From: Sulfitobacter sp.
GTDB lineage: Bacteria > Pseudomonadota > Alphaproteobacteria > Rhodobacterales > Rhodobacteraceae
Length of the DNA: 49,032 nt
Reading direction: 5' to 3'
Assembly: GCA_013002405.1 (NCBI GenBank)
Contig: JABDKA010000226.1
Coordinates: 1-49,032 of the forward strand
Position numbers and translations under genes: made by a program
In this document: positions 5,535 through 30,083 of the stretch, piece by piece
Layout of the letters: every line of letters starts with the position of its first letter
Position numbering within the stretch: the first letter of the stretch is position 1
The notes under the pieces: model-generated
Databases searched by the model: none
Seen by the model: only the letters and a program-made list of their open reading frames with translations
Told to the model about the DNA's origin: nothing

Positions 5535-5577
5535 AGGCTAGTCGGCATCGCGGCGATGAGTCTTTGATCTGGCGCAA
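5535..5577 (-). promoter_or_regulatory. FNR/FixK-type promoter for DUF6455-hemN
   Basis: The box TTGATCTGGCGCAA lies at 5564-5577. It matches the FNR consensus TTGAT-N4-ATCAA except for two bases in the second half. Reading the minus strand, TAGCCT at 5540-5535 is a good -10, with 23 nt between box and hexamer, as in class II FNR promoters. The box also lies upstream of the divergent HAD gene at 5649, but no convincing -10 is seen on that side. Confidence 0.65.
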
Positions 5578-5648
5578 CCCATCTGGCGCGGGGCGACAGG
5601 ACGAATGGGTGATTGCACCCGGGCGGCCCTGTGCGCTAGCAGCGCACC

Positions 5649-6299
5649 ATGACAGACAACCGGCCCATCATTTTCGATCTGGACGGCACCCTGGTGCATT
5701 CCGCGCCTGACCTGCATGCGGCCCTCAACGTGACCCTGACTGCCCTCGACCGTCCCACGCTTGATCTCGCGACCGTCATTTCCTTCATCGGAAACGGTGT
5801 GGACAAGCTGGTAGAACGTGGGTTGCGCGCCACTGGCGGTGCACCGGAGCATTTGCTGAGAGAGGCGATTGCCGGGTTCCGGGCCTACTACGGGCAGAAT
5901 GCCGCGACGCTGACCCGACCCTATCCGGGTGTGGTCGATACACTTGTGGGGCTGCAGAAGGCGGGCCACCCCCTCGGGATCTGCACCAACAAGCCAACAG
6001 AACCAGCCCGCTTCATCTGTTCGACTCTGAGGCTTTCGGACTATTTTGACATCATTCAGGGGGCTGAACCGGACCTGGCGCACAAGCCCGATGCAGAACC
6101 GCTGTTGCGCGTGATCACGGCACTTGGTGGCGCGGCCGAAAGCGCTCTCTTTGTCGGCGACAGCGAGGTGGACTACCTGACCGCCCGCAGTGCCAACGTC
6201 CCCTTCCGGCTCTTTACCGGAGGGTATTTGCACGTGTCACTGCCGGATCTGGCCACTGAGGACAGGTTCGATGATTGGCACAACTGCCAGATTGGGTGA
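5649..6299 (+). CDS. gph: HAD-family phosphatase, phosphoglycolate phosphatase-like
   Basis: A 216-residue HAD hydrolase. Motif I is FDLDGTLVHS with the two catalytic aspartates (residues 10 and 12), motif II is in GICTNKP, the motif III lysine is in LAHKPDAEPLL, and motif IV is FVGDSEVDYLTA. The cap domain between motifs I and II is the helical type of the Gph/phosphoglycolate phosphatase group, which removes 2-phosphoglycolate made by Rubisco oxygenation or DNA repair. Related sugar-phosphate phosphatases cannot be excluded. It is divergent from DUF6455-hemN and shares their intergenic region. Confidence 0.8.
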   Translation: MTDNRPIIFDLDGTLVHSAPDLHAALNVTLTALDRPTLDLATVISFIGNGVDKLVERGLRATGGAPEHLLREAIAGFRAYYGQNAATLTRPYPGVVDTLVGLQKAGHPLGICTNKPTEPARFICSTLRLSDYFDIIQGAEPDLAHKPDAEPLLRVITALGGAAESALFVGDSEVDYLTARSANVPFRLFTGGYLHVSLPDLATEDRFDDWHNCQIG

Positions 6300-6352
6300 A
6301 GCCTGAGGGTGATGCATGTGTCCGGCTGCTGTGCGGCGTTCGCAATTCCCGA

Positions 6353-6745
6353 TCAGGGCGGTGCGGCGGCCATGACCTCCACCTCCACCTTGAATTCCGG
6401 CAAGGTGAAGCCCGAAACGATCAGCAGCGTGGAACTTGGCAACCGACCAACCTCCGCAAGAAAGGTATCCCGCGCCCGCATGTAGCCCTGCATGTGCGTG
6501 CGGTCCGTAACGTAGGCGTTGATGTGGGCGACGTCCGCCGGGCCCATGCCGCCAGCAGCAAGGATTGTGCGGATGTTACAAAAACAGATCTCTGCCTGTG
6601 CCTCCGCCCCCTCCGGGATCTGTCCATCCCTGGCTTTCCCCAGCTGGCCTGAGGTCTGCAGGATCCGCCAGCCAGCGGGGATTTCGACGCCGTGCGCGTA
6701 GCGTGCAAAAGGCGGGGCAAGCGTTTCGGGTGTGATCTCTTTCAT
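6353..6745 (-). CDS. RidA family protein (enamine/imine deaminase)
   Basis: A 130-residue member of the RidA/YjgF/UK114 family, which hydrolyses reactive enamines and imines to ketones and ammonia. Visible family features are the GQLG segment, the long helix with an aspartate/valine pattern in AQAEICFCNIRTIL, the VAHINAYVTD strand and the LIVSGFTLPEFKVEVEVMA C-terminus. Canonical RidA has an arginine in the final catalytic stretch (near RVEVEA); here the equivalent stretch is FKVEVEV, so it may be one of the subfamilies without deaminase activity. ATG 6745 is preferred over 6823 because GGAAGGA precedes it. It is convergent with gph and divergent from the creatininase operon. Confidence 0.85.
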   Translation of the reverse strand: MKEITPETLAPPFARYAHGVEIPAGWRILQTSGQLGKARDGQIPEGAEAQAEICFCNIRTILAAGGMGPADVAHINAYVTDRTHMQGYMRARDTFLAEVGRLPSSTLLIVSGFTLPEFKVEVEVMAAAPP

Positions 6746-6872
6746 TCTTGGTCCTTCCGTCATGCAGCCGAAACCCCTTGCCAGATCGCGCCTGTGCAGT
6801 AAATTTGTCGATATCTCTGGCACAGATCATTTCTCAGGGCCACGCAGCAGCACTTTCTTGAAAGGAAGAAGC

Positions 6873-6929
6873 ATGAATGGGCGTGTTCTTATGATTTGTG
6901 CAATCCGAACCGGGTGGGTCCGGCGATGA
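6873..6929 (+). CDS. Possible 18-residue leader ORF before the creatininase gene
   Basis: An ATG at 6873 follows a strong ribosome-binding site (AAAGGAAGAAG) and opens an 18-codon frame whose TGA stop (6927-6929) overlaps the creatininase ATG at 6926 (ATGA). The creatininase start itself has only a poor ribosome-binding site, so this short frame may deliver ribosomes to it. The peptide is basic at its end and contains one Cys and one Trp. It has no recognised family and may have no function beyond coupling. Confidence 0.35.
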   Translation: MNGRVLMICAIRTGWVRR

Positions 6930-10884: not shown

Positions 10885-11214
10885 TCAGCTTTTGCCGCCG
10901 CTCACGCAATTGCGGCAGAGCGGTGCGTAAGGCACGGCCTCCAGCCGCTCTTTCGAGATCTCATCACCACAGGACAAGCAGATGCCGTAGGTGCCATCTT
11001 CAATCCGGGCCAGTGCCCGCTTGAGTAAATCAACCTCCCGCTCGGCCGCCTGACCAAGCCCTTCGAGCACTTCGTCATCCTCCAGATCGATGGCCTGATC
11101 CGACAGATCCCGTGTTTTCTGGTGGCCCAGTTCCTCGTCAATGTCGTGCATCCGCACACCCAACTCTTCGAGCCGGTTCTGAATGACCTTTCTAAAATGC
11201 GCCGTGTCTGTCAT
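10885..11214 (-). CDS. DksA/TraR family zinc-finger protein
   Basis: A 109-residue protein with an N-terminal coiled coil and a C-terminal four-cysteine zinc finger (C79, C82, C100, C103: CLSCGDE ... PLCRNC). DksA-family proteins insert into the secondary channel of RNA polymerase and, often with ppGpp, adjust promoters during starvation. Full DksA is about 150 residues; this shorter form is nearer TraR/YbiI-type relatives. The acidic coiled-coil tip (around DLEDDE, residues 44-48) is compatible with the functional DxxDxA-like tip but not identical. A perfect FNR box with a -10 precedes it, so it is probably induced at low oxygen. ATG 11214 is chosen because AAAGGA lies upstream. Confidence 0.85.
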   Translation of the reverse strand: MTDTAHFRKVIQNRLEELGVRMHDIDEELGHQKTRDLSDQAIDLEDDEVLEGLGQAAEREVDLLKRALARIEDGTYGICLSCGDEISKERLEAVPYAPLCRNCVSGGKS

Positions 11215-11243: not shown

Positions 11244-11285
11244 AGACTAGGCGTACCGCTGACCTGACACCTTGACCAGGATCAA
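11244..11285 (-). promoter_or_regulatory. FNR/FixK-type promoter for the DksA-like gene
   Basis: TTGACCAGGATCAA (11272-11285) is a perfect FNR-type palindrome. On the minus strand, TAGTCT at 11249-11244 is a good -10 with a 22-nt gap, exactly class II geometry. The predicted start of transcription is near 11237, giving a leader of about 23 nt before the ATG at 11214. Confidence 0.8.
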
Positions 11286-11535: not shown

Positions 11536-12045
11536 CTAAAGGGGCCGGTCGGTTCTCAGATAGTTGACCTGCCCACCGGAAAGGGCGGCAAACCAACCGG
11601 TCATCGGGATTGTGGAAAGTGGCTCACCAGCCTCAACAGCGCAGGGAACCAGGCAATCGGACGATGCGCGGAAGACAGCCGCACGAAACCTGCGCGATCC
11701 ATTCATCAAGCGCTCAACAACCGCCTGCGGCAAGAGACAGGCGGTAACCTCACCGCTGGCAAAGGCGCGCGCCCGTTTTGGCAGCGTTGCCAGCATAAGC
11801 GCGAGGCTAAAACCGCATGTCCGGTCCGCCCGAAACCAGAACTGTGACACCCTGCCGTCCATCTGATCCGGGGCGTCGATGCGGATCATGCCCGAAGTCG
11901 GGGCGATCCAGACCGTGTCTTGGTCCGTTGACCTGATTTCCTGACCGGCTGAGAATATCCTGTGCTCAAGCGGTGTTTCCGAACATCCGACCCAAACTGC
12001 CAGGCTGTCGCTAAGAACTGCATACCCATCGCATTTGGGGGTCAT
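11536..12045 (-). CDS. Crp/Fnr-like sensor-domain protein without a clear DNA-binding domain
   Basis: A 169-residue protein whose first 120 residues look like the beta-roll of Crp/Fnr regulators: a GQEI turn, then SGMIRID, DGRVSQFWF, CGFS and a helix like the dimerisation helix. Aligned by eye to the FixK-like protein at 22503 it shares the SG-V/M-x-R, N/D-G-R and G-F positions. A normal family member is 220-250 residues with a C-terminal winged helix; here the chain ends without a readable helix-turn-helix. It could be a truncated regulator, a partner that forms inactive heterodimers, or an effector-binding protein. ATG 12045 has only a weak ribosome-binding site. It shares a perfect FNR box with the divergent flavodoxin gene. 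Confidence 0.55.
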   Translation of the reverse strand: MTPKCDGYAVLSDSLAVWVGCSETPLEHRIFSAGQEIRSTDQDTVWIAPTSGMIRIDAPDQMDGRVSQFWFRADRTCGFSLALMLATLPKRARAFASGEVTACLLPQAVVERLMNGSRRFRAAVFRASSDCLVPCAVEAGEPLSTIPMTGWFAALSGGQVNYLRTDRPL

Positions 12046-12075: not shown

Positions 12076-12117
12076 ATCCTAATTGAGCGGCCGCCCGCTT
12101 GGTTTGACAAATATCAA
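12076..12117. promoter_or_regulatory. Divergent FNR/FixK-type promoter
   Basis: TTGACAAATATCAA (12104-12117) is a perfect FNR-type box between two divergent genes. On the minus strand TAGGAT (12081-12076) lies 22 nt away, exactly where the -10 of a class II promoter belongs, directing the Crp-like/DUF2892 pair. On the plus strand the same distance gives only CAAGGT (12140-12145), a weaker -10 for the flavodoxin. The box centre is 62 and 65 nt from the two start codons. Confidence 0.8.
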
Positions 12118-12172: not shown

Positions 12173-12685
12173 ATGAAGATCGCCGGGGCAGCCACAGGCA
12201 TCGTTTTCTTCACAAGGACAGGACATACCAAACGCGTGGCAAAGAGGCTTGCTCAGGCCTTGAGCGCGGACCTCATCCCGATGCGGGCACCACAGTACGA
12301 GAAAGGTTTTCGCGGTTACATGCGGGCGGCAATCGACAGCCTGAGGCATATCAATGAACATACCCCGCAGGACTTCGAAAGCCTGACCGATTATGATCGA
12401 ATTGTCCTGTGCGCCCCGGTCTGGACCTCCTTTCCGGCTGTCCCGCTGAGGGGGCTGCTGCACGGCAACGTGGCGTTGCCGTCTTCTGTATCGCTTTTCC
12501 TGACAAGTGGCGCCCATTCTCCTACACACAAGGCGTTCCGCGTGGCTGAAACGGATCTGGGCCGTTCCTTCGTTGCCAAAGCGTCATTGCCGAACGACTG
12601 GGAGGGCACCCCGAAGGAAGAGCGTATATTCGCCCGTTTCTTTCGTGATCTTGACCCAGCGCAAGGCATCGCTGCAGCATTGTGA
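12173..12685 (+). CDS. Flavodoxin-like protein
   Basis: A 170-residue protein with the flavodoxin FMN phosphate loop (FFTRTGHTKRVAKRLA, residues 12-27), a strand ending in IVLCAPVWTSFPAVPLRG that forms the second FMN loop, and an alpha/beta pattern throughout. Such proteins carry electrons or act as FMN-dependent reductases; the HemG-type protoporphyrinogen oxidase is a distant flavodoxin relative of similar length, but I see no specific match. ATG 12173 is preferred because GGGGGCAGA precedes it and the fold starts there. The perfect FNR box 62 nt upstream suggests production at low oxygen. Confidence 0.75.
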   Translation: MKIAGAATGIVFFTRTGHTKRVAKRLAQALSADLIPMRAPQYEKGFRGYMRAAIDSLRHINEHTPQDFESLTDYDRIVLCAPVWTSFPAVPLRGLLHGNVALPSSVSLFLTSGAHSPTHKAFRVAETDLGRSFVAKASLPNDWEGTPKEERIFARFFRDLDPAQGIAAAL

Positions 12686-12721
12686 TCCAGTCTGTCACAG
12701 TGTGATTAGGGAGCCCAACGG

Positions 12722-13429
12722 GTGGCAAAGGTCGTTTTCAAAACTGAAGGCATTACCAAGGTCTACGATACCGGCAAGATCAAGGTTTATGCCCTTGCGG
12801 GTGTGGATCTTGAGCTTTTCGAAGGGGAATTGACGGTCCTGCTGGGCCCCTCGGGCAGCGGCAAGTCGACGCTGCTTAACATCCTGGGCGGACTGGACCG
12901 GGCGACGGAAGGACGCGTCTGGTTTGAGGATACCGAACTGACCAACATGTCGGACCGCGGGCTGACCCGCTACAGGCGCGATCATGTCGGCTTTGTCTTT
13001 CAGTTCTACAACCTTGTTCCCAGCCTGACCGCGCGGGAAAACGTGCAACTGGTAACCGATGTGGCCCCCGACCCGATGCCCGCCGCAGAGGCGCTTGAGC
13101 TGGTCGGGCTGGGCAAGCGGATGGATCACTTCCCCTCAGAGATGTCGGGCGGCGAACAGCAACGGGTCGCCATCGCGCGCGCCATCGCCAAGCGGCCGGA
13201 GATCCTGCTGTGTGATGAACCCACTGGCGCCCTGGACAGCACCACAGGGGTTCAGGTGCTTGAAGCCCTGCGCGACATCAATGAGCGTTTCGGCACCACC
13301 ACTGTCGTCATCACCCACAACGCCGAGATCCAGCGCATGGCGCACCGGGTGATATTTTTTCAGGATGGTCGTATCAGCAGGGTCGTGACAAACGACACGC
13401 GGATCGCCCCGTCCGAGATTGCCTGGTGA
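12722..13429 (+). CDS. ABC transporter ATP-binding protein (MacB/LolD type)
   Basis: A 235-residue ABC ATPase. Walker A is GPSGSGKST (about residues 41-49), the Q-loop follows in FVFQFYNL, the signature is [13 protein letters not shown] (about 141-153), Walker B is [12 protein letters not shown] (about 161-172) and the H-loop is in VVITHNAE. The LolD/MacB subgroup powers FtsX-fold permeases that extrude molecules from the periplasm or extract lipoproteins. It starts with GTG, with TAGGGAG upstream. The permease gene begins 6 nt after its stop, then an HlyD adaptor, making a three-gene exporter. No FNR box was found before it, so it may be controlled separately from the surrounding island. Confidence 0.92.
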
Positions 13430-13435
13430 TCTGAG

Positions 13436-15799
13436 ATGCAGGCCATTGACCGCAAACTGCTGCGTGACTTCAAACGCCTCTGGTTGCAGGCTCTGGCGAT
13501 TGCGCTGGTGCTGGCCTGCGGGGTGGCGATCATGCTCACATCGGTCGGCATGTACCGTGCGCTGTCGGAAACGCGCCTCGCCTACTACGAACGCAACCGT
13601 TTTGCGGATGTCTTTGCCCAAGCCACCCGCGCGCCTCTGTCACTGCTGGCCGAGATTGCCGCGATTGAAGGCGTGCTGGCGGTGGAGCCACGGGTGAACA
13701 ATTATGCCATCCTCGACATCCCCGACCAGATCCGCACCGCAGTGGGGCTGGTGATCTCATACCCCGAAGAAGCAGAGCCGCGCCTCAACGTCCCGCGCCT
13801 TTCGTCCGGGCGCTGGCCCGATCCCTTGAATCCCGATGAGATTTTGGTCAACGCGCCCTTCGCCGAAGCCCATGACTATGGGCCTGGAGATCGCTTTTCG
13901 GCCAATCTGCGCGGTCAGAAGCGCACGCTGACAATCGTCGGCACGGCCCTGTCGCCCGAGTTTATTTATACCATTGGGCCCGGCGCGCTCATGCCGGACA
14001 ATGAGAACTTTGCCATCATCTGGATGGGAGAGCGTGCGGCGGCTGCAGCCTTCAACATGACCGGTGCCTTCAATGACCTTTCCCTGTCCCTTGCAACCGG
14101 CCAATCCGAAGAGCCGGTGATCGAGGCGGTGGATGAATTGCTGGCACCCTACGGCGGGCTTGGGGCCTTCGGGCGGGAAACCCACGCGTCAAACGCCTTT
14201 CTGGATGCCGAACTCAAACAGCTCAGGGGTATGGGCGCGATCCTGCCACCGATCTTCTTTGCCATCTCGGGGTTCCTTGTCAGCATGGTGATGAGCAGGA
14301 TCATCGCGCTTGAACGCAGTGAGATCGGGCTGCTCAAGGCCATCGGTTATTCCGATACGGAGGTCTGCCTGCATTACCTGATGCTGGCGGGGATGATTGC
14401 CCTGGTCGGTGTCGGTATCGGCTGGATCGCGGGGACCGCGCTTGCCCGTACGTTGGCTTGGCAATATGCGCAGTTCTTCAATTTTCCCTACGTGATCTTT
14501 CAGGTTTCCTACTGGGTCTACGCGGTCACCGGCCTTGCAGGGCTACTGACGACCAGTCTCGGGGCAGCGCAGAGCGCGCTGAAGGCCGCGCGCCTGGCCC
14601 CTGCGGTTGCCATGCAGCCCCCTGCCCCGCCCCGTTTCAACCGTACCCTGATCGACCGGGCAATGGCCGCGCTGCGCCTGTCGCAATCCACCATCATGAT
14701 CCTGCGCAGCCTGATCCGCTGGCCGGTGCGCAGCCTTCTGACAACACTGGGCCTGGCACTGGCCGTCGCCTCCGTCATTGCGTCGCTCTTCATGAACGAC
14801 GCGCTGGATGAGATCATCGACATGGCCTTTCACCAGACCAACAGGCAGGACGCGATGTTGCTCTTCTCGGAAGAGATGCCGATGGGAACGGTAGAGGATG
14901 TGCGCACCCTGCCGGGCGTCTGGCAGGTGGAAAGCCAACAGATGCAGCCCGCCATCCTGCGCAATGGGCACCTGTCCAAGCGGATCGCGATTGAGGGACG
15001 TCCGCCCGGCAACGATCTGAGCCGCGTGCTGGATACGAAAGGCCGACCCGTAGCAGCGCCACCGGGGGGTGTTCTGCTTTCCGAACGGCTGGCGCGCAAA
15101 CTGGCGCTGGAGCCGGGAGATCAGGTCACCGTCGAATTCCTCGAAGGACGACGGGAGATCCATGAACTGACTGTCTCGGGCCTGGTGGAGCAGCATCTCG
15201 GGTTAGGGGCCTACATGAGCTTTGACGCGCTCAATGCCACCTTTCGGCAGGCACCCCGGCTGACGATGGTCAACCTCACCTTCGACCCAACCCGCCGCGA
15301 AGAACTGCACGCCGCCATCAAGGAACTGCCTCAGTTGAGCGGGCTGGTCGAAGTTCAGGAAAACCTCCGCTTCTTCGAAGAAACGATCGAGGAGAATATC
15401 CTGGTGATGAACGCCATCTACATCACCATTGCGGTCCTGATTACTGTCGGCGTGACCTACAATGCCGCACGCATTCTGCTGTCAGAACGGGCGCGGGAAC
15501 TGGCCAGCCTGCGCATACTCGGCTTTGGCCGGGGTGAGATTTCCTATATCCTCGTGGGTGAGATGATGCTGGTGGCGCTGATCGCGCAGCCGATTGGCTG
15601 GATATTCGGGGCCTGGATCGCGGCGGCCATGACGCGGGCCTTTACCAGCGATCTTTACGCCATCCCGCTGGTGCTGGAGCCCGCCACCTTCGCCAAGGGC
15701 AGTCTGATCGTTCTTGCCGCCGCTCTGGTATCCGTCCTGATCGTTCGTATCCGGCTTGACCGGCTGGATCTGGTGGCCGTCATGAAAACAAGGGAATAA
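13436..15799 (+). CDS. ABC transporter permease, duplicated FtsX domains
   Basis: A 787-residue membrane protein made of two FtsX/MacB-type units. A first membrane helix near residues 15-40 is followed by a periplasmic domain of about 230 residues and a three-helix FtsX block (about 275-390). A fourth helix (about 440-460) leads into a second periplasmic domain and a C-terminal three-helix block (about 660-780). This 'two units in one chain' layout is typical of permeases related to LolCE and DevC that work with an HlyD-like adaptor. The partners encoded on both sides agree. Likely cargo is a lipid, glycolipid or small hydrophobic molecule, which is inference from the family. Confidence 0.88.
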   Translation: MQAIDRKLLRDFKRLWLQALAIALVLACGVAIMLTSVGMYRALSETRLAYYERNRFADVFAQATRAPLSLLAEIAAIEGVLAVEPRVNNYAILDIPDQIRTAVGLVISYPEEAEPRLNVPRLSSGRWPDPLNPDEILVNAPFAEAHDYGPGDRFSANLRGQKRTLTIVGTALSPEFIYTIGPGALMPDNENFAIIWMGERAAAAAFNMTGAFNDLSLSLATGQSEEPVIEAVDELLAPYGGLGAFGRETHASNAFLDAELKQLRGMGAILPPIFFAISGFLVSMVMSRIIALERSEIGLLKAIGYSDTEVCLHYLMLAGMIALVGVGIGWIAGTALARTLAWQYAQFFNFPYVIFQVSYWVYAVTGLAGLLTTSLGAAQSALKAARLAPAVAMQPPAPPRFNRTLIDRAMAALRLSQSTIMILRSLIRWPVRSLLTTLGLALAVASVIASLFMNDALDEIIDMAFHQTNRQDAMLLFSEEMPMGTVEDVRTLPGVWQVESQQMQPAILRNGHLSKRIAIEGRPPGNDLSRVLDTKGRPVAAPPGGVLLSERLARKLALEPGDQVTVEFLEGRREIHELTVSGLVEQHLGLGAYMSFDALNATFRQAPRLTMVNLTFDPTRREELHAAIKELPQLSGLVEVQENLRFFEETIEENILVMNAIYITIAVLITVGVTYNAARILLSERARELASLRILGFGRGEISYILVGEMMLVALIAQPIGWIFGAWIAAAMTRAFTSDLYAIPLVLEPATFAKGSLIVLAAALVSVLIVRIRLDRLDLVAVMKTRE

Positions 15800-15803
15800 C
15801 GCT

Positions 15804-17015
15804 ATGGTAGTCTCCGCTCGGACCTTCACCCTTCTCGCCTTCGGACTGGCCCTGCTGGCAGGACTGGCCTTTGTCAGTTTCCGGGCGGACCCGGTCCCTG
15901 TCGATCTGGCCGAGGTTACAAGAGGACCGTTGGAGATTACCGTCAACGCCGACGGCCGCACGCAGATCCGTGATCTTTACGAGGTTGCGGCCCCCATCGC
16001 GGGAATGGCTCTTCGATCCCCCGTGGAGGTGGGCGATCAGGTGGTGGCGAATGAGACGGTCGTGGCCGTGGTGCGCCCCGCCTCTTCCGGCCTGCTGGAT
16101 GCGCGCACCAGGCGGCAGGCCGAGGCGGCCCTGCAGGAAGCGCTGGCCGCGCATCATGTGGCCGAGGCCGATCTGTTACAAGCGAACGAGCGGCTGCTCT
16201 TCGCGCGCAGCCAGTTCGACCGCACCCAGGCGCTCGTGGCCCGCGGCGTAGCCTCTGTCACGCGGCTTGAGGATGACACACAGCGCCTTTCTGTGGCGCA
16301 GGCCGCAGCGGAGGCCGCACAGGCGCGGATCGATATGGCGAAGGGCACCATTGAGCGGGCACGCGCGAGCCTGCTGGAGCCGGGCACGCCCGAAGAGACC
16401 CCGGATAGTTGCTGCATTGAGCTTAAATCCCCTGCGGACGGCCTGATCCTGGAGGTTGCCGCGATGAGCGAGCGGCCCGTGGCCATCGGCACACCGCTGG
16501 TCAGCGTGGGCGATCCGCACAACATCGAACTGGTTGCGGATATTCTGTCCACCGATGCGGTGCGCCTCTCCTCCGGTGCCCTTGCCCACGTGGAGCGCTG
16601 GGGGGGTCTCGAGACACTGGAGGCCCGGCTCGACCGAATTGATCCCAAGGCCCGCACCAAGGTCTCAGCGCTCGGCATCGAAGAGCAGCGGGTGGACGCC
16701 TATTTCACCCTGGTCAATCCTCTGGAAGAAAGGCCCACGCTTGGTGACGGCTTCGCCGTCTTCCTGCGCATCGTGGAATGGCGGGGGGAAGATGTGCTTC
16801 AGGTGCCGCTCAGTGCGCTTTTCCGCAGTGATGGCGGATGGGCCGTCTTCGTGGCCCGTGACGGGGTGGCGGAACTGCGGCCCGTCACACCCGGCCGCCG
16901 AAACGGCCAGATGAGCGCCATCAAAGAGGGACTGACCGAGGGTGAAAGGGTCATCATGCACCCAAGCGACGAAATCGGCCCCGGTGTCGGGCTGGTTGAG
17001 CGGTCCTTGCTCTGA
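15804..17015 (+). CDS. HlyD/MacA-type periplasmic adaptor subunit
   Basis: A 403-residue adaptor with a single N-terminal membrane anchor (residues 8-26), a first lipoyl/barrel-sandwich half (around YEVAAPIAGMALRSPVEVGDQV), a long coiled-coil hairpin rich in Ala, Glu and Gln (about 100-190), the second lipoyl half (CIELKSPADGLILEVAAMSE), then beta-barrel and membrane-proximal domains. It bridges the inner-membrane permease to an outer-membrane channel. The channel (TolC type) is not in the window, so it must be supplied from elsewhere. It follows the permease by 4 nt and ends the operon, converging on the phasin gene. Confidence 0.88.
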   Translation: MVVSARTFTLLAFGLALLAGLAFVSFRADPVPVDLAEVTRGPLEITVNADGRTQIRDLYEVAAPIAGMALRSPVEVGDQVVANETVVAVVRPASSGLLDARTRRQAEAALQEALAAHHVAEADLLQANERLLFARSQFDRTQALVARGVASVTRLEDDTQRLSVAQAAAEAAQARIDMAKGTIERARASLLEPGTPEETPDSCCIELKSPADGLILEVAAMSERPVAIGTPLVSVGDPHNIELVADILSTDAVRLSSGALAHVERWGGLETLEARLDRIDPKARTKVSALGIEEQRVDAYFTLVNPLEERPTLGDGFAVFLRIVEWRGEDVLQVPLSALFRSDGGWAVFVARDGVAELRPVTPGRRNGQMSAIKEGLTEGERVIMHPSDEIGPGVGLVERSLL

Positions 17016-17416: not shown

Positions 17417-17458
17417 AGTTTAACGTGCCGGGCGGGCCGGTGACTTGATTTGGCTCAA
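17417..17458. promoter_or_regulatory. FNR/FixK-type promoter between phasin and VIT genes
   Basis: TTGATTTGGCTCAA (17445-17458) differs from TTGAT-N4-ATCAA at one base of the second half. Toward the phasin gene, TAAACT on the minus strand (17422-17417) lies 22 nt from the box. Toward the VIT gene the same spacing gives CAATGT (17481-17486) and a predicted start of transcription at 17493, the A of its ATG. Confidence 0.72.
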
Positions 17459-18219: not shown

Positions 18220-18260
18220 TTGAGCAAGATCAAGGCGCTGCCACCCCGGCTGCCTAGTCT
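18220..18260 (+). promoter_or_regulatory. FNR/FixK-type promoter for the M50-CBS protease
   Basis: TTGAGCAAGATCAA (18220-18233) has one mismatch in the first half-site. TAGTCT at 18255-18260 gives a -10 with a 21-nt gap. The predicted start of transcription is near 18267, about 18 nt before the ATG at 18285. Confidence 0.72.
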
Positions 18261-19429: not shown

Positions 19430-20008
19430 ATGAAGACAGTTCTCATCATTCAGGGTAACCCTGATCCCGCTGGCAATCACCTGTGTCACGCCATTGCCGC
19501 CGCCTACCGCGAGGCGGCCGAAACGGCGGGGCATCAAGTGATGGGCATCGACGTGGCACAGGAGCAAATCCCCTTCCTGCGAACCAAGGAGGAATGGGAA
19601 GGCATCAATTTGCCCCCGGTGGCAGCGGCCGGACAGAAGGCCGTCACCAAGGCAGATCACATTGTCCTGATCTATCCCCTTTGGATGGGAGACATGCCCG
19701 CAATTCTGAAGGCCTGGATCGAACAGGTCTTTCGCAAGGGGTTTGCCTTTGAGATGGACGGTTCCAGCTGGCAAAGCGCGCTTAAGGGTAAGTCGGCGCG
19801 CGTGATGGTCACCATGGGGATGCCCGGGTTCGCTTATCGGTGGTTCTATCTGGCCCATTCGCTGCGCAGCCTTAAGCGCAACATCCTGAAAATATGCGGT
19901 ATAGGGCCCGTCAAAAGCTGCGTCTTCGGGAACGCAGAGGACCCCAGCGGCAGGGCGCAACAGGGCTTCATTGCCACCGCAAGGCGGTTAGGGGCCAGCG
20001 CCGGGTAA
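19430..20008 (+). CDS. NAD(P)H-dependent flavodoxin-fold oxidoreductase
   Basis: A 192-residue member of the Flavodoxin_2 (NQO1/KefF/MdaB) family, reducing quinones or other small acceptors by two electrons with FMN or FAD. The pattern is seen in the N-terminal strand and loop (ILIIQGNPDPAGNHLCHAI), the IVLIYPLWMGDMPAILKAWIEQVF helix region and the TMGMPGFAYRW loop. It starts 14 nt after the protease gene, so it probably shares the upstream FNR-type promoter. A role in keeping quinones reduced when respiration is limited fits the setting. Confidence 0.82.
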   Translation: MKTVLIIQGNPDPAGNHLCHAIAAAYREAAETAGHQVMGIDVAQEQIPFLRTKEEWEGINLPPVAAAGQKAVTKADHIVLIYPLWMGDMPAILKAWIEQVFRKGFAFEMDGSSWQSALKGKSARVMVTMGMPGFAYRWFYLAHSLRSLKRNILKICGIGPVKSCVFGNAEDPSGRAQQGFIATARRLGASAG

Positions 20009-20076: not shown

Positions 20077-21627
20077 TTGGACGATATGAAGACGAGCCTG
20101 GAAGACAGCGCCCTTTTGACCGCGATCCTGGATGCGGCGGCGGATGCGATCATCGTGGCGAACGCAGAAGGGATGATCCGCCGCGCCAATGCCGCCGCGG
20201 GCAACCTATTCCAGTATGACCCTGCAGAACTGGTCGGACAGAGCGTCAATATCCTCATGCCTGCAGCACTGGCCGATGGTCACGACGGTTTCATGCAACA
20301 CCATATGAAGACAGGTGAAAACCGGATCATCGGGATCGGTCGTGAGGTCGAGGGCCTCCGCTCGGACGGGCGAGAATTCCCGCTGCATCTGTCGGTGGGT
20401 GAGGCCGAGGTGGCGGGTGAGACGCTCTTCGTTGGCATCCTCCACGATCTGACGCAGCGCCGCGCCACGCTTGATGCGCTTTCCCGGTCGCAAAGGCTGG
20501 ATGCGATCGGGCGCATGACCGGCGGCATCGCGCACGATTTCAACAACCTTCTGACTGTTGTCATCGGAAATCTGGAGTTGCTTGATATGCGCAACCCGTC
20601 CGATCAGCAGCGGCAGCTGATCACCGACGCCCTGGAGGCGGCTGAAATGGGCGCCGACCTGACCTCGCGGCTCTTGGTTTTTGCCCGCAAAAGCAACCTC
20701 AGCCCGGTGGAGGCCGATCTGACCGCGCTCTGCGAGGAAACGCTTTTGATCCTGCGGCGCACTATGGGGGCAAGCGTCCGGATCAAGACGCAATATGCGT
20801 CAGATCTGAACCGGGTGATGGTTGATCCGGTGCAGCTGCAGTCCGCCTTGATGAATCTTGCCCTGAATGCGCGTGACGCGATGAAAGATGGCGGTGAACT
20901 GCTGATTTCGGTTTCCAACGTCACGATCGACGATACCTACATTGCACAGGAAACCGACATCGCGCCGGGCCATTACGTGCGCCTGTCGGTCAGCGACGAC
21001 GGTGCGGGCATGTCGCCGGAGGCGCAAAGGCGGGCGTTCGAGCCCTTCTTCACGACCAAATCCGGCAGCGGCGGGACGGGCTTGGGCTTGGCCATGGTCT
21101 ACGGCTTTGTTCGGCAATCGGGCGGGCACATTACCCTCTACAGCGAGGAGGGCCATGGGACGAGCTTCGGTCTCTACTTTCCGGCTGTGGACGGGTCACC
21201 TCAGGTGCCGGGTGAGACTGAGCAAGGCGCGCTCGCCCTCTCCGAAATCGGGGCCGGGCGGCGGGTTCTGGTGGTCGAGGATAATCCCAAGGTCCGAAAG
21301 CTGGCTGTTCAGCGAATGCGGGATCTGGGCTTTGAGACCTATGAGGCCGAAAGCGGCGATATCGCGCTCGCCATGCTGGAAAAGGGTCTCCAGGTCGATC
21401 TGATCTTTTCGGATCTGGTCATGCCGGGCCGTCTGAACGGGTACGAATTGGCGGCGGAGGTGAACCGCTTACACCCTGAACTGAAGATCCTGCTGACCTC
21501 CGGATACGCCAGCGACGTGGTCACCGGCGCGATGGCACACGACCGCCCCTTTGAAATCCTGCACAAACCCTACCGCATCGCGGAACTGTCGCGCAGGCTT
21601 CAGACGCTCTTTGGGTTCGGTGCCTGA
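20077..21627 (+). CDS. fixL: FixL-like soluble hybrid histidine kinase (haem PAS, HisKA, HATPase, receiver)
   Basis: A 516-residue oxygen-sensor kinase. The PAS domain (about 10-130) has the FixL haem-pocket layout: His69 in the position of the haem ligand, the RIIGIGREV stretch with Arg89 equal to the distal arginine, and FPLHLSVGE after it. Then come the HisKA helix with phospho-acceptor His153 (GGIAHDFNNL), the N box (MNLALNARDAM), the G boxes (GGTGLGLAM) and a C-terminal receiver (about 395-512, Asp446). No membrane helix is seen, as in hFixL of rhizobia, whereas classical FixL is membrane-anchored. The start is uncertain: TTG 20077 has GGGAG upstream at a workable distance; ATG 20086 is three codons later. 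Its end overlaps the convergent response-regulator gene by 28 bp. Confidence 0.85.
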   Translation: MDDMKTSLEDSALLTAILDAAADAIIVANAEGMIRRANAAAGNLFQYDPAELVGQSVNILMPAALADGHDGFMQHHMKTGENRIIGIGREVEGLRSDGREFPLHLSVGEAEVAGETLFVGILHDLTQRRATLDALSRSQRLDAIGRMTGGIAHDFNNLLTVVIGNLELLDMRNPSDQQRQLITDALEAAEMGADLTSRLLVFARKSNLSPVEADLTALCEETLLILRRTMGASVRIKTQYASDLNRVMVDPVQLQSALMNLALNARDAMKDGGELLISVSNVTIDDTYIAQETDIAPGHYVRLSVSDDGAGMSPEAQRRAFEPFFTTKSGSGGTGLGLAMVYGFVRQSGGHITLYSEEGHGTSFGLYFPAVDGSPQVPGETEQGALALSEIGAGRRVLVVEDNPKVRKLAVQRMRDLGFETYEAESGDIALAMLEKGLQVDLIFSDLVMPGRLNGYELAAEVNRLHPELKILLTSGYASDVVTGAMAHDRPFEILHKPYRIAELSRRLQTLFGFGA

Positions 21628-22361
21628 CCCCTTTCGACATCGCTGGCAAAGGTATAACCGACACCGCGCACGGTCTTGATCAGCTTCGGCTGGCCCGGTT
21701 CACGTTCGATCTTCTTGCGCAGACGGGCGATCTGGTTGTCGACGGTTCGGTCCATCGGCTGCCAGGAATTGCCGCCAACCAGATCCATCAGCTGATCGCG
21801 CGACAAGACCCTCTTGGGCCGCTCCAGAAAAACCGTAAGCAATTTGAAATCGCCGCTGGTCAGGGGGCATTCCCTGCCATCCCGGTCGCGCAGTTCCAGC
21901 CTTTCGGGTACGGCAACCATCTCGTCGAAGAAGAAAGCGGCGCTGCTGCCTTGAGGCATTGCGACCGCCTGCGCCTCTGTCTCTCCGCCTAGATTTCCGA
22001 CGCGGCGCAGGACGCTGCGAACCCGCGCGACAACCTCGCGTACGTGGAAAGGCTTGGTGATGTAATCATCGGCTCCCAGCTCAAGCCCCACAACCCGGTC
22101 GATTACGTCATCCCTGCCCGTCACGATGATGATCGGCAGCGCGCCGCCTTGGCGGATCTCGCGGGCCAGCTCCAGACCATTGTCAGCGCCCAGATGGATA
22201 TCCAGCGTCACAAGATCAATATTGCCGCACGCGATGTGCTTGCGCATCTGTACGGCGCTGGCGGCTTCGACAACGGCAAAGCCTTCACTTTCCAGAACAT
22301 TGCGCAACAGCGCCCTGATCCTGGCTTCGTCCTCGACAACGAGGATGGTCTGCTGGCCCAT
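21600..22361 (-). CDS. OmpR/PhoB-type response regulator (FxkR-like position)
   Basis: A 253-residue response regulator. The receiver has the acidic pair (VVEDE), phospho-acceptor Asp54 (LVTLDIHLG), and the conserved threonine (IVTGRDD) and lysine (DDYITKPF). The C-terminal winged helix ends with the family's DRTVDNQIARLRKKIE and TVRGVGYTF motifs. FixJ has a LuxR-type domain, so this is not FixJ. In Rhizobium etli an OmpR-type regulator, FxkR, links hybrid FixL to fixK, and this gene lies between the same two partners. ATG 22361 is chosen because AAGGAG precedes it; the 5'-extended frame lacks any motif. Confidence 0.85.
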   Translation of the reverse strand: MGQQTILVVEDEARIRALLRNVLESEGFAVVEAASAVQMRKHIACGNIDLVTLDIHLGADNGLELAREIRQGGALPIIIVTGRDDVIDRVVGLELGADDYITKPFHVREVVARVRSVLRRVGNLGGETEAQAVAMPQGSSAAFFFDEMVAVPERLELRDRDGRECPLTSGDFKLLTVFLERPKRVLSRDQLMDLVGGNSWQPMDRTVDNQIARLRKKIEREPGQPKLIKTVRGVGYTFASDVERGQAPNPKSV

Positions 22362-22502
22362 GCCCGCGCGCTCCTTGGAACGATCTATCCGCTCCATCGT
22401 TTCCCGGCTCATACACTTTGATACAAAAACGCGCAGAGACCGCCTGACGCCAATTACATTCATCGCACAAGTTGAACCCATCACGATGAGGGGCTCAGTT
22501 TC

Positions 22503-23177
22503 ATGTATGTCACGATACCATCAGAGGTTACGCCGCAAAAGTCCACTAATCCAATCACCGACAAAACCGCGCAGGTCTGCGAAACAAATTTGAAAACAGG
22601 CGCTTACCTTTTCTACGAAGGAGACCCGGTTGAGTGGCTCTACCAGGTCAAAAGCGGGGTTTTGCGCCTGACCCGGCTGCTTGAAAACGGGCGGCGCCAA
22701 GTGATCGCCTTCGGCTATCCGGGCGATATCGTAGGATTTCCGGCCAACGGGCTTCACCACACGGATTGCGACGCGCTGAGTGGCGCGCGCTTGCAGCCCT
22801 ACCGCCGCGCGACACTTGAGAAAGGTGATGGCGATCCCGCTTTGCATCAGGCGCTGCTGCAGGCCGCCCTGCGGGAGATCAGCGCGATGCAGGATCATTT
22901 CATGATGCTGGGCCGCAAGTCCGCGATAGAAAAGGTTGCCTCCTTCCTCTGCGTACTGGCGGAGCGGGTCGGCCAGAATGCCGCGGGCGAGACCCGGATC
23001 GAACTGCCGATGAGCCGGGCCGACATCGCCGATTTCCTTGGCCTGACCACGGAGACCGTCAGCCGCACACTCACGCAACTGCGCAAGAGCCGTATTATTG
23101 AGATCGATAACATCCACACCATTGTCATCTGTCGCCAGACGGCCCTGCTGGGTCTGTCTCTGGGTGATCGCGACTGA
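22503..23177 (+). CDS. fixK: FixK-like Crp/Fnr transcription regulator
   Basis: A 224-residue Crp/Fnr regulator. A beta-roll (about 28-110) with SGVLRLTRLLENGRRQVIAF and GDIVGF is followed by a dimer helix and a winged helix. The recognition helix reads ETVSR (E184, S187, R188), the E-x2-S-R pattern that contacts TTGA half-sites, so it can recognise the boxes found in this window. Its cysteines (C26, C89, C150) do not form the N-terminal iron-sulfur cluster motif of FNR/FnrL, so it is probably not an oxygen sensor itself and depends on the neighbouring kinase. GAGGGG precedes the ATG. It is divergent from the response regulator across 141 bp, in which I found no FNR-type box. Confidence 0.85.
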   Translation: MYVTIPSEVTPQKSTNPITDKTAQVCETNLKTGAYLFYEGDPVEWLYQVKSGVLRLTRLLENGRRQVIAFGYPGDIVGFPANGLHHTDCDALSGARLQPYRRATLEKGDGDPALHQALLQAALREISAMQDHFMMLGRKSAIEKVASFLCVLAERVGQNAAGETRIELPMSRADIADFLGLTTETVSRTLTQLRKSRIIEIDNIHTIVICRQTALLGLSLGDRD

Positions 23178-23198: not shown

Positions 23199-23239
23199 TT
23201 GATCCGAGTCAAATCGCGCGAACGCCGTTCCGCTAGCAT
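23199..23239 (+). promoter_or_regulatory. FNR/FixK-type promoter for Hsp20 and universal stress protein
   Basis: TTGATCCGAGTCAA (23199-23212) has one mismatch in the second half-site. TAGCAT at 23234-23239 is a good -10 with a 21-nt gap. The predicted start of transcription is near 23246, giving a leader of about 36 nt before the Hsp20 ATG. Confidence 0.75.
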
Positions 23240-23281: not shown

Positions 23282-23767
23282 ATGTCCCGTCCAACACTCC
23301 CCGGTTTGCAGACCGAGCCGTCCGGCGCACCGTTTTTTCCCTCATTCCAAAAGGAAATGAATCGCTTGCTTGAGCAGTTCCGCACCGGCTTCCCTTCCCT
23401 CGACACGGCCCTGCCCGAACGGTTCGGTGCCGACATGTTCCCAGCCATCGACGTTCTGGAAACCGAAGAGGCTATTGAGGTCAGCGCAGAAGTGCCCGGG
23501 GTGAAGGAGGATGACCTTGAGGCGTCGATCAGCGGCAGCACGCTGGTTCTCAAGGGTGAGAAAAGCTCGGACCACCGGGAGGACGAGGACAACTATCATC
23601 TGGTGGAGCGTCGCTTCGGCAGCTTCCGTCGGCAGATCCCGCTGGGATTTACCCCCGAGGAAGAGAGTGTCGAAGCAAGCTTCGTGGATGGTGTGCTGAA
23701 GGTGAAGATCACCAAGCCCGCCGCCGCGAAATCCAGCGTTCAGAAGATCAACATCAGCCGCAAATGA
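23282..23767 (+). CDS. Small heat-shock protein, Hsp20/alpha-crystallin family
   Basis: A 161-residue ATP-independent holdase chaperone. An N-terminal arm (1-50) precedes an alpha-crystallin domain that starts at AIDVLETEEAIEVSAEVPGVKEDDLE and includes LVLKGEK, the RRFGSFRRQIPLG strand and the conserved A-x-x-x-x-G-V-L motif (ASFVDGVLKVKI). Length and domain order are normal. GGAAAGGAG lies before the ATG. It is the first gene after an FNR-type box, with the universal stress protein 64 nt behind, a pair often seen in oxygen-limitation regulons such as DosR of mycobacteria. Confidence 0.92.
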   Translation: MSRPTLPGLQTEPSGAPFFPSFQKEMNRLLEQFRTGFPSLDTALPERFGADMFPAIDVLETEEAIEVSAEVPGVKEDDLEASISGSTLVLKGEKSSDHREDEDNYHLVERRFGSFRRQIPLGFTPEEESVEASFVDGVLKVKITKPAAAKSSVQKINISRK

Positions 23768-23831
23768 TAGAGCCCTCGCGGGCTGGCGGTAAGGTCCACC
23801 CGCGACCTCCAACACCAGAAGGAAGACCGCC

Positions 23832-24671
23832 ATGAGCCTCAAGACACTGCTTGTTTGTCTTACCACGGCAGAGCACGCCGATACGCTCTTGAAATTCGCC
23901 GTGCCCCTGGCGAAGGCACATGGCGCTCATCTGACCGGTCTGCACACGATCGAGGCGCTTCTGGTCTACCCCGGTATTGCGATGCACGTGCCCGGCCCTG
24001 CCTTTGCCGCCTTCAACGAAAGCCAGAAGAAAGAGGCCGCGGCCATCCGTGGGATTTTCCAGAAGCACACCGAAGGTGAGAGCTTTGCCAGCGAATTCCG
24101 GCTGATCCGCGCCGAGGCGGTATCGGCCAACGAAAGGATGATCGAAAGTGCGCGCGCGGCGGACCTTGTCATCATGGCGCAGGAGGACCGCGAGGCCGAC
24201 CGCTACGATCAGCGCAAGGCACAGGTAAATATGATCCGCGAAAGCGGTCGGCCGGTGATCGTTGTCCCGCTTGACTACGACGGGCCGCCGCCCGGCGCAA
24301 ATATCCTGGTCGGCTGGAGCGACACGCGCGAAGCCGCCCGCGCCGCCCACGATATGCTGAGCATTGCGAAACCGGGGGCGGACGTCACGGTCCTGCGCGT
24401 GGGACACGCGCCCGCGGATACATTGAAAGATTCAGACGGCATCGATGAGGTGGAGTCGCTGACGCGGCAAGGCCTGAAAGTCACGCTTGAGCATCGCGAG
24501 CCCAAAGGGCAGCAGGTGGCAGAGATCCTTTGCCAGGCCGCTTTCGAAAAGGGTGCCGATCTGATCGTGACGGGCGCCTTCGGTCATTCGAAGGTCTATG
24601 ATTTCGTGATCGGTGCCACTACCCATACCCTTCTGAAAGAAGCGCAGATCCCGGTGCTTTTCAGCAAGTGA
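23832..24671 (+). CDS. Universal stress protein, tandem UspA domains
   Basis: A 279-residue protein with two UspA-type domains (about 3-145 and 155-278). The second ends with the nucleotide-binding motif G-x2-G-x9-G (GAFGHSKVYDFVIGATT), while the first has only a degenerate form (MAQEDREADRYD). Usp proteins help cells survive energy stress and stasis, and many bind ATP or AMP. AGAAGGAAG precedes the ATG. It is 64 nt downstream of the Hsp20 gene and probably shares its FNR-type promoter. Its last 11 bases overlap the convergent endonuclease-like gene. Confidence 0.9.
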   Translation: MSLKTLLVCLTTAEHADTLLKFAVPLAKAHGAHLTGLHTIEALLVYPGIAMHVPGPAFAAFNESQKKEAAAIRGIFQKHTEGESFASEFRLIRAEAVSANERMIESARAADLVIMAQEDREADRYDQRKAQVNMIRESGRPVIVVPLDYDGPPPGANILVGWSDTREAARAAHDMLSIAKPGADVTVLRVGHAPADTLKDSDGIDEVESLTRQGLKVTLEHREPKGQQVAEILCQAAFEKGADLIVTGAFGHSKVYDFVIGATTHTLLKEAQIPVLFSK

Positions 24672-25362: not shown

Positions 25363-25418
25363 AATGCCTATATAGGAATGACAGAGACCATTTTGAACGG
25401 CAAGAGCCCCCACAAACG

Positions 25419-26503: not shown

Positions 26504-26544
26504 ATCTTAGGCAGGCGGCAAAGGCTTTGCTTGATCTAGATCAG
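26504..26544 (-). promoter_or_regulatory. FNR/FixK-type promoter for cbpM
   Basis: TTGATCTAGATCAG (26531-26544) is one base away from a perfect palindrome. On the minus strand TAAGAT at 26509-26504 forms a good -10, 21 nt from the box. The predicted transcript starts about 117 nt before cbpM, leaving room for the short coupled ORF. Confidence 0.7.
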
Positions 26545-27128: not shown

Positions 27129-27144
27129 AGATTTCTCTTGTATG

Positions 27145-28761: not shown

Positions 28762-28821
28762 GAGCCGGTCTTGCAAGGCTGCAAAGCGTAAGCCCAGCGC
28801 CTCGCGCTTTCTCACGCAGGT

Positions 28822-28863
28822 CTGATCAACATCAAGGTATGTGGTCCATTTCCCTGCCAGAGT
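28822..28863 (+). promoter_or_regulatory. FNR/FixK-type box before the antiporter gene
   Basis: CTGATCAACATCAA (28822-28835) has a single mismatch in its first half-site. At the class II distance the -10 is CAGAGT (28858-28863), which is weak. The predicted start of transcription is 28870, one base before the ATG at 28871, so the mRNA would be effectively leaderless. Confidence 0.55.
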
Positions 28864-28870
28864 CCGGCGT

Positions 28871-30031
28871 ATGGACATCTCGCATTTGCTGATCACCCTC
28901 GGGCTTCTTTTTCTGACGGGCCTTGCCGCCGACCAGTTGGGGCGCTTTACCCACCTGCCCCGGGTGACCATGCTGCTGCTCCTGGGTCTGATCGCCGGTG
29001 ACGCGGGTTTCGGACTTTTCAACGCGGAGGTTATTTCGTGGTTTGACACGGTCGCCATCGTGGCCCTGACCATGGTGGCCTTCCTTCTGGGCAGTTCCTT
29101 GTCGCGGTCGAACCTGGCGGCCCACGGGCGAGCAATCCTGGCGATATCACTTTCGGTCGTGGTGGTGACGGTGCTGTTGGTCGCCCTTGGGCTGATCGCT
29201 GCGGGATTGGAGCCCGGCATCGCGTTTCTCCTTGGGGCAATCGCGACGGCAACGGCACCGGCGGCGATTGCCGATGTCATCAGACAGACGGGACTTACCA
29301 ACCGTTTCACGGAGATGCTGAAAGGTATCGTCGCCATCGACGATGCTTGGGGGCTTCTGGCCTTCAGTCTTACGCTGGCGATGGTTTCCTCCACCGGTGG
29401 CGGCCATCTGCTCAATGGTGCGGCGATAGAGATTGGCGGCGCAATCCTTTTGGGGGGAATGGTGGGCCTGCCCGCCGCCTATCTGACCGGACGGATCGCA
29501 GCGGGCGAGCCACTGCAGGCAGAGGCGATCGGGATCGTTTTCCTCACCGCGGGTTTGGCGCTCTGGCTGAATGTGTCTTTCCTGATCGCGGGCATGACGG
29601 CGGGCGCCCTGATTGCCAATGTAGCACCGCATCATGACCGGGCCTTCCACGAGATTGAGCACGTGCAGTGGCCCTTCCTGATCCTCTTTTTCCTGCTCGC
29701 AGGGGCCTCGCTTGAGTTCGACAGGATCTGGCAGGTGGGCACGCTCTCCGTTGTCTTCATTTGTCTCAGGATCGTCTCACGGCTGGTTGGCGGCTGGATC
29801 GGCGCAGCCCTGGTGCGGGCCCCGAGGGAGGAAAGGATGTGGTACGGCCCGGCACTTTTGCCACAGGCCGGTGTTGCGGTGGGCATGGCGCTTGTCGCCG
29901 GTGAGGCACTGCCGGAATGGTCCTCCGCCATCATGGCGCTGACCCTGTCCGCAACGGTCATCTTCGAACTGATCGGCCCACCCATCACCTTCTATTGTAT
30001 CCGAAGGGTCACTCAACGATCCGGCCTTTAA
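28871..30031 (+). CDS. Kef/CPA2-type cation:proton antiporter
   Basis: A 386-residue integral membrane protein with about 12 helices. It carries family landmarks: LTGLAADQLGR, LPRVTMLLLLGLIAGD, the ALTMVAFLLGSSLS helix, and the ion-binding pair in GIVAIDDAWGLLAFS, the Asp-Asp motif used by CPA antiporters. There is no C-terminal TrkA-N domain as in full KefB/KefC, so it is a membrane-only form. ATG 28871 is supported by the start of the first helix; no Shine-Dalgarno sequence precedes it. An FNR-type box is 42 nt upstream. It may keep pH and K+ balance when respiration slows. Confidence 0.82.
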   Translation: MDISHLLITLGLLFLTGLAADQLGRFTHLPRVTMLLLLGLIAGDAGFGLFNAEVISWFDTVAIVALTMVAFLLGSSLSRSNLAAHGRAILAISLSVVVVTVLLVALGLIAAGLEPGIAFLLGAIATATAPAAIADVIRQTGLTNRFTEMLKGIVAIDDAWGLLAFSLTLAMVSSTGGGHLLNGAAIEIGGAILLGGMVGLPAAYLTGRIAAGEPLQAEAIGIVFLTAGLALWLNVSFLIAGMTAGALIANVAPHHDRAFHEIEHVQWPFLILFFLLAGASLEFDRIWQVGTLSVVFICLRIVSRLVGGWIGAALVRAPREERMWYGPALLPQAGVAVGMALVAGEALPEWSSAIMALTLSATVIFELIGPPITFYCIRRVTQRSGL

Positions 30032-30041
30032 CACACTGGGT

Positions 30042-30083
30042 TTGATTTAGGTCATGGAGACATCGGCAGTTCCGGGGCCTAAT
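30042..30083 (+). promoter_or_regulatory. FNR/FixK-type promoter for the Na/Pi transporter gene
   Basis: TTGATTTAGGTCAT (30042-30055) has a good first half-site and a poorer second (GTCAT). CCTAAT (30078-30083) lies 22 nt downstream as a candidate -10. The leader to ATG 30197 would be about 107 nt. This is the weakest of the paired box/-10 sites, apart from the antiporter. Confidence 0.5.

Follow-up and report, generated by a model that had tools for sequence, protein, structure and literature searches.

The closest described counterpart of the locus considered here is the hFixL-FxkR-FixK cascade of Rhizobium etli and R. leguminosarum, in which FxkR, a member of the OmpR family (PMC7769827), binds a K-box, GTTACA-N4-GTTACA, before fixK (PMC7888657, PMC4999443). 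This cascade has been placed in the Rhizobiaceae ancestor (PMC4999443), FixK has been called generally restricted to the Rhizobiales (PMC2908626), and a study of 50 genomes reported FixK in the Rhizobiales and Caulobacterales and only FnrN in the Rhodobacterales (PMC4999443). The predicted members of the FixK core regulon of the Bradyrhizobiaceae include FixL, ATP-binding cassette (ABC) subunits, an HlyD-type protein, Hsp20, a CBS-domain protein and a zinc alcohol dehydrogenase (PMC2908626), while in R. leguminosarum a small heat shock protein with an anaerobox is microaerobically induced (PMC11784457). Our literature search, outside of which most subscription literature lies, found among the papers listed no description of the hFixL-FxkR-FixK cascade in the Rhodobacterales. 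The DNA analysed here is a stretch of 49,032 nucleotides of Sulfitobacter sp. (Rhodobacterales; Rhodobacteraceae; GCA_013002405.1, contig JABDKA010000226.1), referred to in its whole length as the window, which encodes a FixK-like regulator amid a cluster of FNR/FixK-type boxes. Within about 14 kb it contains an apparently complete oxygen-sensing relay together with stress-survival genes bearing predicted binding sites, and we consider it quite probable that this region is an island for survival at low oxygen that carries the switch for it.

The sensor of the putative relay is an hFixL-like hybrid sensor kinase (20086..21627, + strand) with Pfam PAS, HisKA and HATPase_c domains and a C-terminal receiver (Response_reg). 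Its PAS domain aligns to the FixL structures 1d06 (E-value: 1e-27) and 1dp6 and retains the proximal histidine and the IIGIGR segment, marking it, at the sequence level, as a putative haem PAS domain of the FixL type; hFixL orthologs are 43-69% identical. Divergent from fixK lies a gene (21600..22361, - strand) for an OmpR-family response regulator (Response_reg and Trans_reg_C), FxkR-like by sequence, which shares 48% identity with regulators of R. etli p42f and R. leguminosarum and 30-39% with eight OmpR-family paralogs of its own genome, the p42f protein being a putative FxkR. FixJ proteins have a LuxR-type output domain. A FixLJ pair beside fixK was rejected, since the neighbouring regulator carries an OmpR-type Trans_reg_C domain; no search for FixJ was made elsewhere in the genome. 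A K-box-like direct repeat, CATACA-N4-GATACA (22410..22425, + strand), is located 93 bp upstream of the fixK start. The fixK gene (22503..23177, + strand) encodes a CRP/FNR regulator with HTH_Crp_2 and cNMP_binding Pfam domains, an ETVSR recognition helix and no cysteine cluster (one cysteine before residue 40), and its closest solved structure is FixK2 (4i2o). It scores 149 bits against the NCBIfam model TransRegFixKCaul and 130 bits against TransRegFnrLRhodb, short of the cut-off of 300 set for both, and on these scores is FixK-like and not one of the named equivalogs. Residues E184 and R188 are invariant in all 14 aligned FixK orthologs, with the serine of the helix replaced by cysteine in four. 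The cysteine of the FixK HHTDC segment is likewise invariant in these 14 and is a possible redox switch. Kinase, regulator and K-box-like repeat are all absent from a preliminary description of this DNA, which was limited to the boxes, their -10 elements and the fixK gene; together they suggest that fixK would fall under an oxygen-sensing relay.

The same arrangement recurs around fixK in other species. Loci were collected around the FixK orthologs of the best 80 of 546 relatives, picked on FixK similarity and not on boxes, and total 1,445,906 bp; these species share ancestry, so that the loci cannot be counted as independent cases. By FixK, the closest relatives with a name belong to Sulfitobacter, Tateyamaria, Roseobacter and Litoreibacter, which makes a Roseobacter-group bacterium the most probable source of the window. 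A divergent regulator gene is present in 74 loci (cut off in three, lacking in three), as is hFixL (cut off in four, lacking in two). A repeat of the form GWTACA-N4-GWTACA is exact in 45 of the 74 loci with a divergent regulator and within one mismatch in 64, against maxima of 0 and 2 over 50 rounds of Markov controls; the form was chosen after the first 16 sequences, some of which recur among the 80 loci, and the test is not fully independent. The strict GTTACA-N4-GTTACA form is exact in one relative (G116). In Sulfitobacter sp. DSM 110093 and Terrarubrum flagellatum, the triad of hFixL, regulator and fixK is plasmid-borne and has cco genes as neighbours, and in Tropicibacter oceani it is carried on one plasmid, with hFixL apart from the other two genes.

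The set of parts is that of the rhizobial hFixL-FxkR-FixK cascade, as judged by sequence: common to both are a hybrid FixL-type kinase, a regulator other than FixJ, a K-box or K-box-like repeat before fixK, and a FixK that acts, or in the window is predicted to act, on anaeroboxes. Unlike the rhizobial cascade, the window lies outside the Rhizobiaceae, its kind of K-box has half-sites that are mostly GATACA and not GTTACA, and the genes that bear boxes near its triad have stress functions and are not fixNOQP; compared with three proteins of the rhizobial order, the window FixK reaches an identity of only 33-38%. In R. leguminosarum TA1, hFixL and fixK with a divergent regulator gene are likewise found near hsp20. 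This plasmid locus (L120) further holds BON-domain and CBS genes and a one-mismatch K-box, and in gene content is a rhizobial counterpart of the stress island. Predicted members of the Bradyrhizobiaceae FixK regulon resemble the window genes in kind, a likeness by description and not a tested orthology (PMC2908626). The Bradyrhizobiaceae, however, use FixLJ where the window has an OmpR-type regulator, and in contrast to their FixK regulon no phosphoketolase was seen among the annotated window genes. Trees of the regulator and of FixK have long outgroup branches and weak deep support, and neither an origin nor a direction of transfer is claimed; a search of phage records with the regulator returned 176 records, none at 60% identity or above, and was not used.

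Nine boxes had been listed in the preliminary description, starting at positions 5564, 11272, 12104, 17445, 18220, 23199, 26531, 28822 and 30042, and all nine were found in place. Only two of them had been called perfect, whereas five (11272, 12104, 17445, 18220 and 23199) match TTGA-N6-TCAA, the pattern scored here, without mismatch; the narrower form TTGAT-N4-ATCAA is matched by none, its sole match in the genome lying on another contig. The boxes at 5564, 26531, 28822 and 30042 each carry one mismatch. All five perfect boxes of the region from 5535 to 30083 are intergenic, according to a gene table made in this analysis in which intergenic DNA makes up 2,760 of the 24,549 bp of that region, and two of them (12104 and 17445) sit between divergent genes, a point not made before. 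Two further perfect matches not listed previously, at 31448 and 39207, bring the window to seven, and both are in coding sequence. The earlier statement that the density exceeds random expectation stands: 60 dinucleotide shuffles of the region gave a mean of 0.25 perfect sites (maximum: 2), as opposed to the five observed, and a mean of 6.5 one-mismatch sites (maximum: 13), as opposed to 14. Across the scanned genome (3,619,459 bp in 252 contigs; 90% complete), 62 perfect sites were counted, compared with 16 for a reversed-pattern control. From the genome-wide count about 0.84 perfect sites would be expected in the window, where seven were found; no other contig of this fragmented assembly has more than three, and the present cluster is the densest found. 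The 80 fixK loci contain 324 perfect boxes, compared with 14 to 21 in five Markov controls.

The spacing between box and -10 element is also constrained. A -10 element had been proposed for eight of the nine boxes, and a TANNNT hexamer is indeed present for seven, at gaps of 22, 22, 22, 21 and 21 nt for 11272, 12104, 17445, 18220 and 23199, 23 nt for 5564 (TAGCCT) and 21 nt for 26531 (TAAGAT); none is found for 28822 and 30042 at gaps of 15-29 nt in either direction, 30042 being followed only by CCTAAT. When the 62 genomic sites are read both ways (124 oriented sites), TANNNT occurs seven times at gap 21 and ten times at gap 22, and no more than twice at each of the remaining gaps between 5 and 44; all five perfect boxes of the region belong to these 17 sites. 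Similarly, 12 of 26 distinct boxes of the window genes and their orthologs in fetched relatives have TANNNT at 21-22 nt, and no more than one has it at each of the remaining gaps between 8 and 34. The 80 loci offer 639 distinct oriented sites, of which 142 show the hexamer at 21-22 nt; the mean for other gaps is 2.9. Among orthologs with a box, TANNNT at 21-22 nt follows in 33/41 for the M50-CBS gene and 13/15 for phasin. All 31 boxes of Hsp20 orthologs keep at least the dinucleotide TA at this gap; two pairs of gaps taken as controls gave 0 and 1. This spacing fits class II activation, with the box centre approximately 41 bp (near -41.5) before the predicted transcription start. The class II geometry put forward in the preliminary description, and the enrichment of such boxes beside a fixK-like gene with an ETVSR helix, are borne out by both spacing and conservation.

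The perfect boxes precede the following genes. The box at 11272..11285 (- strand; TAGTCT at 11244-11249) lies before a gene for a DksA/TraR-like zinc-finger protein (10885..11214, - strand; Pfam DksA-like_N and zf-dskA_traR). The box at 12104..12117 is flanked on the minus strand by a gene for a 169 amino acid protein without a Pfam or NCBIfam match (11536..12045), which would be served by TAGGAT at 12076-12081, and on the plus strand by an apparent operon (12173..17015) encoding, by Pfam, a weakly flavodoxin-like protein, an ABC ATPase, an FtsX/MacB permease and an HlyD-type protein; the flavodoxin match of its first gene, 55 bp from the box, is below the curated Pfam cut-off. The box at 17445..17458 is shared in the same manner by a phasin-like gene (17041..17385, - strand; Phasin_2, PF09361; E-value: 3e-12), with TAAACT at 17417-17422, and a gene for a VIT1-family transporter (17493..18206, + strand; PF01988). 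On the plus strand, the box at 18220..18233 (TAGTCT at 18255-18260) precedes an apparent operon encoding an M50-family (site-2-type) peptidase with a CBS domain (18285..19415; Pfam), a quinone-reductase-like Flavodoxin_2 protein (19430..20008; Pfam) and hFixL, and the box at 23199..23212 (TAGCAT at 23234-23239) precedes genes for Hsp20 (23282-23767) and a universal stress protein (Usp; 23832-24671), both Pfam matches and together spanning 23282..24671.

In the 80 loci, a perfect box within 200 bp upstream was counted for orthologs of these genes, leaving out matches with less than 60% query coverage, a start after residue 12 or less than 38% identity, as well as those for which a different query gave a better, overlapping match and those with less than 150 bp of upstream sequence. 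Such a box precedes 15/15 phasin, 41/48 M50-CBS, 31/37 Hsp20 and 23/28 VIT1 orthologs, together with 30/65 hFixL, 6/13 DksA and 14/44 Usp orthologs. It is rare before CbpM (3/22), u25419 (1/17), NaH (1/4), fixK (1/74) and the regulator gene (1/76), and was found before none of the HlyD (0/6), EEP (0/6), ABC (0/8), Flavodox2 (0/5) and MacB (0/3) orthologs; in the window, HlyD, ABC, MacB and Flavodox2 occupy internal positions of apparent operons. The distance from box to gene start is narrow, mostly 47-53 bp for M50-CBS, 64-81 bp for Hsp20 and mostly 33-35 bp for VIT1.

The box at 5564..5577 (- strand; TAGCCT at 5535-5540) lies before a DUF6455 gene (5184-5471; PF20056) that precedes hemN (3793..5151, - strand; TIGR00538 above cut-off), the gene for oxygen-independent coproporphyrinogen III oxidase. 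A box with at most one mismatch is present 31-131 bp upstream of all 11 hemN homologs from 12 relatives and is perfect in five, making this box a credible, if not certain, candidate; three of these homologs are only 37-40% identical, a DUF6455 gene was detected beside none of the 11, and TANNNT at gaps of 20-24 nt was found in three. The box at 26531..26544 (- strand; TAAGAT at 26504-26509), before a CbpM/MerR_2-like gene (26080-26379), is a weak promoter candidate given how few CbpM orthologs are boxed. The boxes at 28822 and 30042 were dropped as promoters, as they lack TANNNT and few NaH orthologs have a box, the comparison covering NaH but no NaPi ortholog. Of the nine-box regulon first proposed, the five perfect boxes hold and 5564 may well belong, while 26531 is doubtful and the last two are unsupported.

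From gene content, box positions, -10 geometry, conservation and the K-box-like repeat we infer operon structure, haem binding, phosphotransfer, DNA binding, the direction of regulation and feedback, as follows. Once oxygen has left the haem that the FixL-type PAS domain is taken to bind, the hybrid kinase would signal to the divergent FxkR-like regulator, which would bind the GATACA/GTTACA direct repeat upstream of fixK and switch this gene on. The cluster-free FixK would then bind TTGA-N6-TCAA boxes centred near -41.5 and recruit RNA polymerase in the class II manner, its predicted targets being the dksA-like gene, the gene at 11536-12045, phasin, M50-CBS-flavodoxin-hFixL and hsp20-usp, and probably also the flavodoxin/ABC-MacB-HlyD operon and VIT1. 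With hFixL located downstream of the M50-CBS box, the sensor would itself belong to the regulon that it controls, which would amount to positive feedback; the fixK and regulator genes of the window have no box. In 71 loci, hFixL has its own box in 30 and follows a boxed M50-CBS gene in 20, placing it behind a box in 50. The loop could thus close through the sensor, box 18220 of the window having its -10 element in place. On the whole, the boxes represent a genuine, conserved and interpretable regulon, most likely governed by a variant of the known oxygen cascade in a group reported to lack it. A broader reading, to which we give slightly less than an even chance, is that the Roseobacter group carries a self-contained microoxic survival module, patchy and partly on plasmids, that comprises the haem-PAS hybrid kinase, an FxkR-like relay, a K-box, a cluster-free FixK and clustered stress targets. 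This module would be superimposed on the FnrL network by sharing its boxes and would lock itself on by way of the sensor gene, not fixK.

Several observations weigh against this interpretation. A full -10 hexamer at 21-22 nt is uneven among boxed orthologs, being present for 7/14 Usp, 3/6 DksA, 6/23 VIT1, 4/31 Hsp20 and 1/30 hFixL boxes; for hFixL even TA alone is found at this gap in only 1/30. Of the 30 boxes that immediately precede hFixL in relatives, 29 lack a -10 element at class II spacing; such boxes may work in some other way or have no function, and feedback is weakened where hFixL has a box of its own. This lack of a -10 element lowers our confidence in both the island and the wider Roseobacter module; hFixL is furthermore behind no box in 21 of the 71 loci. 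The 33-35 bp typical of VIT1 orthologs is less than a class II promoter followed by an ordinary leader would need. The window K-box has three mismatches to the strict form and one to the GWTACA form, the regulator tree is weakly supported with one own-genome paralog inside the open group, and in one locus (L059) the hFixL ortholog has diverged in the haem-histidine and IIGIGR segments of its PAS domain, with boxes retained nearby.

Among other explanations, a short motif that happens to be clustered in intergenic DNA, together with hexamers resembling a -10 element that were selected after the event, could account for the four one-mismatch boxes taken alone, as the window contains 19 such sites, 13 of them coding, and 28822 and 30042 lack TANNNT. 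For the five perfect boxes a chance origin was rejected on the genome count, the shuffles, the fixed -10 gap and the conservation before orthologs, leaving it highly improbable as an account of the cluster. A rather improbable alternative is that the kinase-regulator pair answers a signal other than oxygen, such as nitric oxide, redox or quinone state, and that the genes of the island form a general stress regulon. Ligands besides oxygen can bind to haem PAS domains, several of the cargo genes are general stress genes, and the residue of the window hFixL aligned with FixL Arg206 is histidine; the domain nevertheless aligns closely to oxygen-sensing FixL with its histidine and IIGIGR kept, and the presence of cco genes beside the triad on two plasmids and of the same box before hemN homologs speaks for oxygen.

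The boxes might also be mainly sites of FnrL, which would sense oxygen by its iron-sulphur cluster and drive the island, with the fixK triad adding little. The Rhodobacterales FnrL regulon shares the box type and targets hemN, usp and cco (PMC5398030, PMC2908626), FNR and FixK recognise very similar sites with overlapping regulons (PMC2908626), and FnrL activates usp genes in Dinoroseobacter shibae, in a report whose text nowhere contains the word FixK (PMC5398030). On a contig bearing ccoN and ccoG-like genes, the present genome also codes for an FnrL-like protein that has ETVSR and a cluster of cysteines at its N-terminus. FnrL senses oxygen itself via its cysteine-bound cluster, whereas the window FixK lacks cysteines of this kind and, in the proposed scheme, acts downstream of a kinase relay. 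Also in favour of FnrL, the ABC operon is boxed in 9/17 FixK-negative loci, and its box shows no significant dependence on FixK (10/12 FixK-positive loci; Fisher p: 0.13; 29 loci counted out of 93 genomes with the permease, one of 30 fetched being excluded for short upstream sequence), a further point against the island having its own switch. The M50-CBS gene, however, tracks FixK and not the family at large. Among 248 genomes of the family of the window, FixK of this type (E-value: <=1e-50) occurs in 26 and the M50-CBS gene in 21, with both in 18, M50-CBS only in three, FixK only in eight and neither in 219 (Fisher p: 2e-18, ignoring kinship), such that FixK is present in 18/21 carriers of the M50-CBS gene, compared with 8/227 non-carriers. 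Boxes moreover crowd round the fixK triad in species after species. We therefore regard control mainly by FnrL as unlikely and FixK as the likely activator, acting on sites that FnrL can probably use as well.

Additional features were observed in the window and the loci compared. A 217 amino acid protein (25419-26072) without a Pfam or NCBIfam match adjoins an Exo_endo_phos gene (24661-25413), and the two are paired in many of the 80 loci. A 701 amino acid protein (34804-36909) also has no Pfam or NCBIfam match and, by eye, a signal-like start. The region from 40593 to 48981 reads as glycogen-metabolism genes (branching enzyme, phosphorylase and phosphoglucomutase), of which Pfam confirmed only the phosphorylase, and contains three one-mismatch boxes in coding sequence. 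An Rfam scan of the window returned no RNA family above gathering scores. In one locus (L098; G000:C115:3104 and 3127), TTGACCGTGGTCAA occurs twice, 23 bp apart, followed by a near-copy, perhaps the site of another regulator.

If this interpretation is correct, the hFixL-FxkR-FixK circuit would not be an invention of the Rhizobiaceae tied to nodulation. The presence of this FixK type in 26 of the 248 family genomes and in the best 80 loci, which include named members of Sulfitobacter, Roseobacter, Tateyamaria, Roseovarius and Yoonia, contrasts with its published restriction. The gene set, with Hsp20, Usp, M50-CBS and phasin, points to a survival response and not solely a respiratory one, and the origin and use of the oxygen circuit in free-living bacteria would become directly testable.

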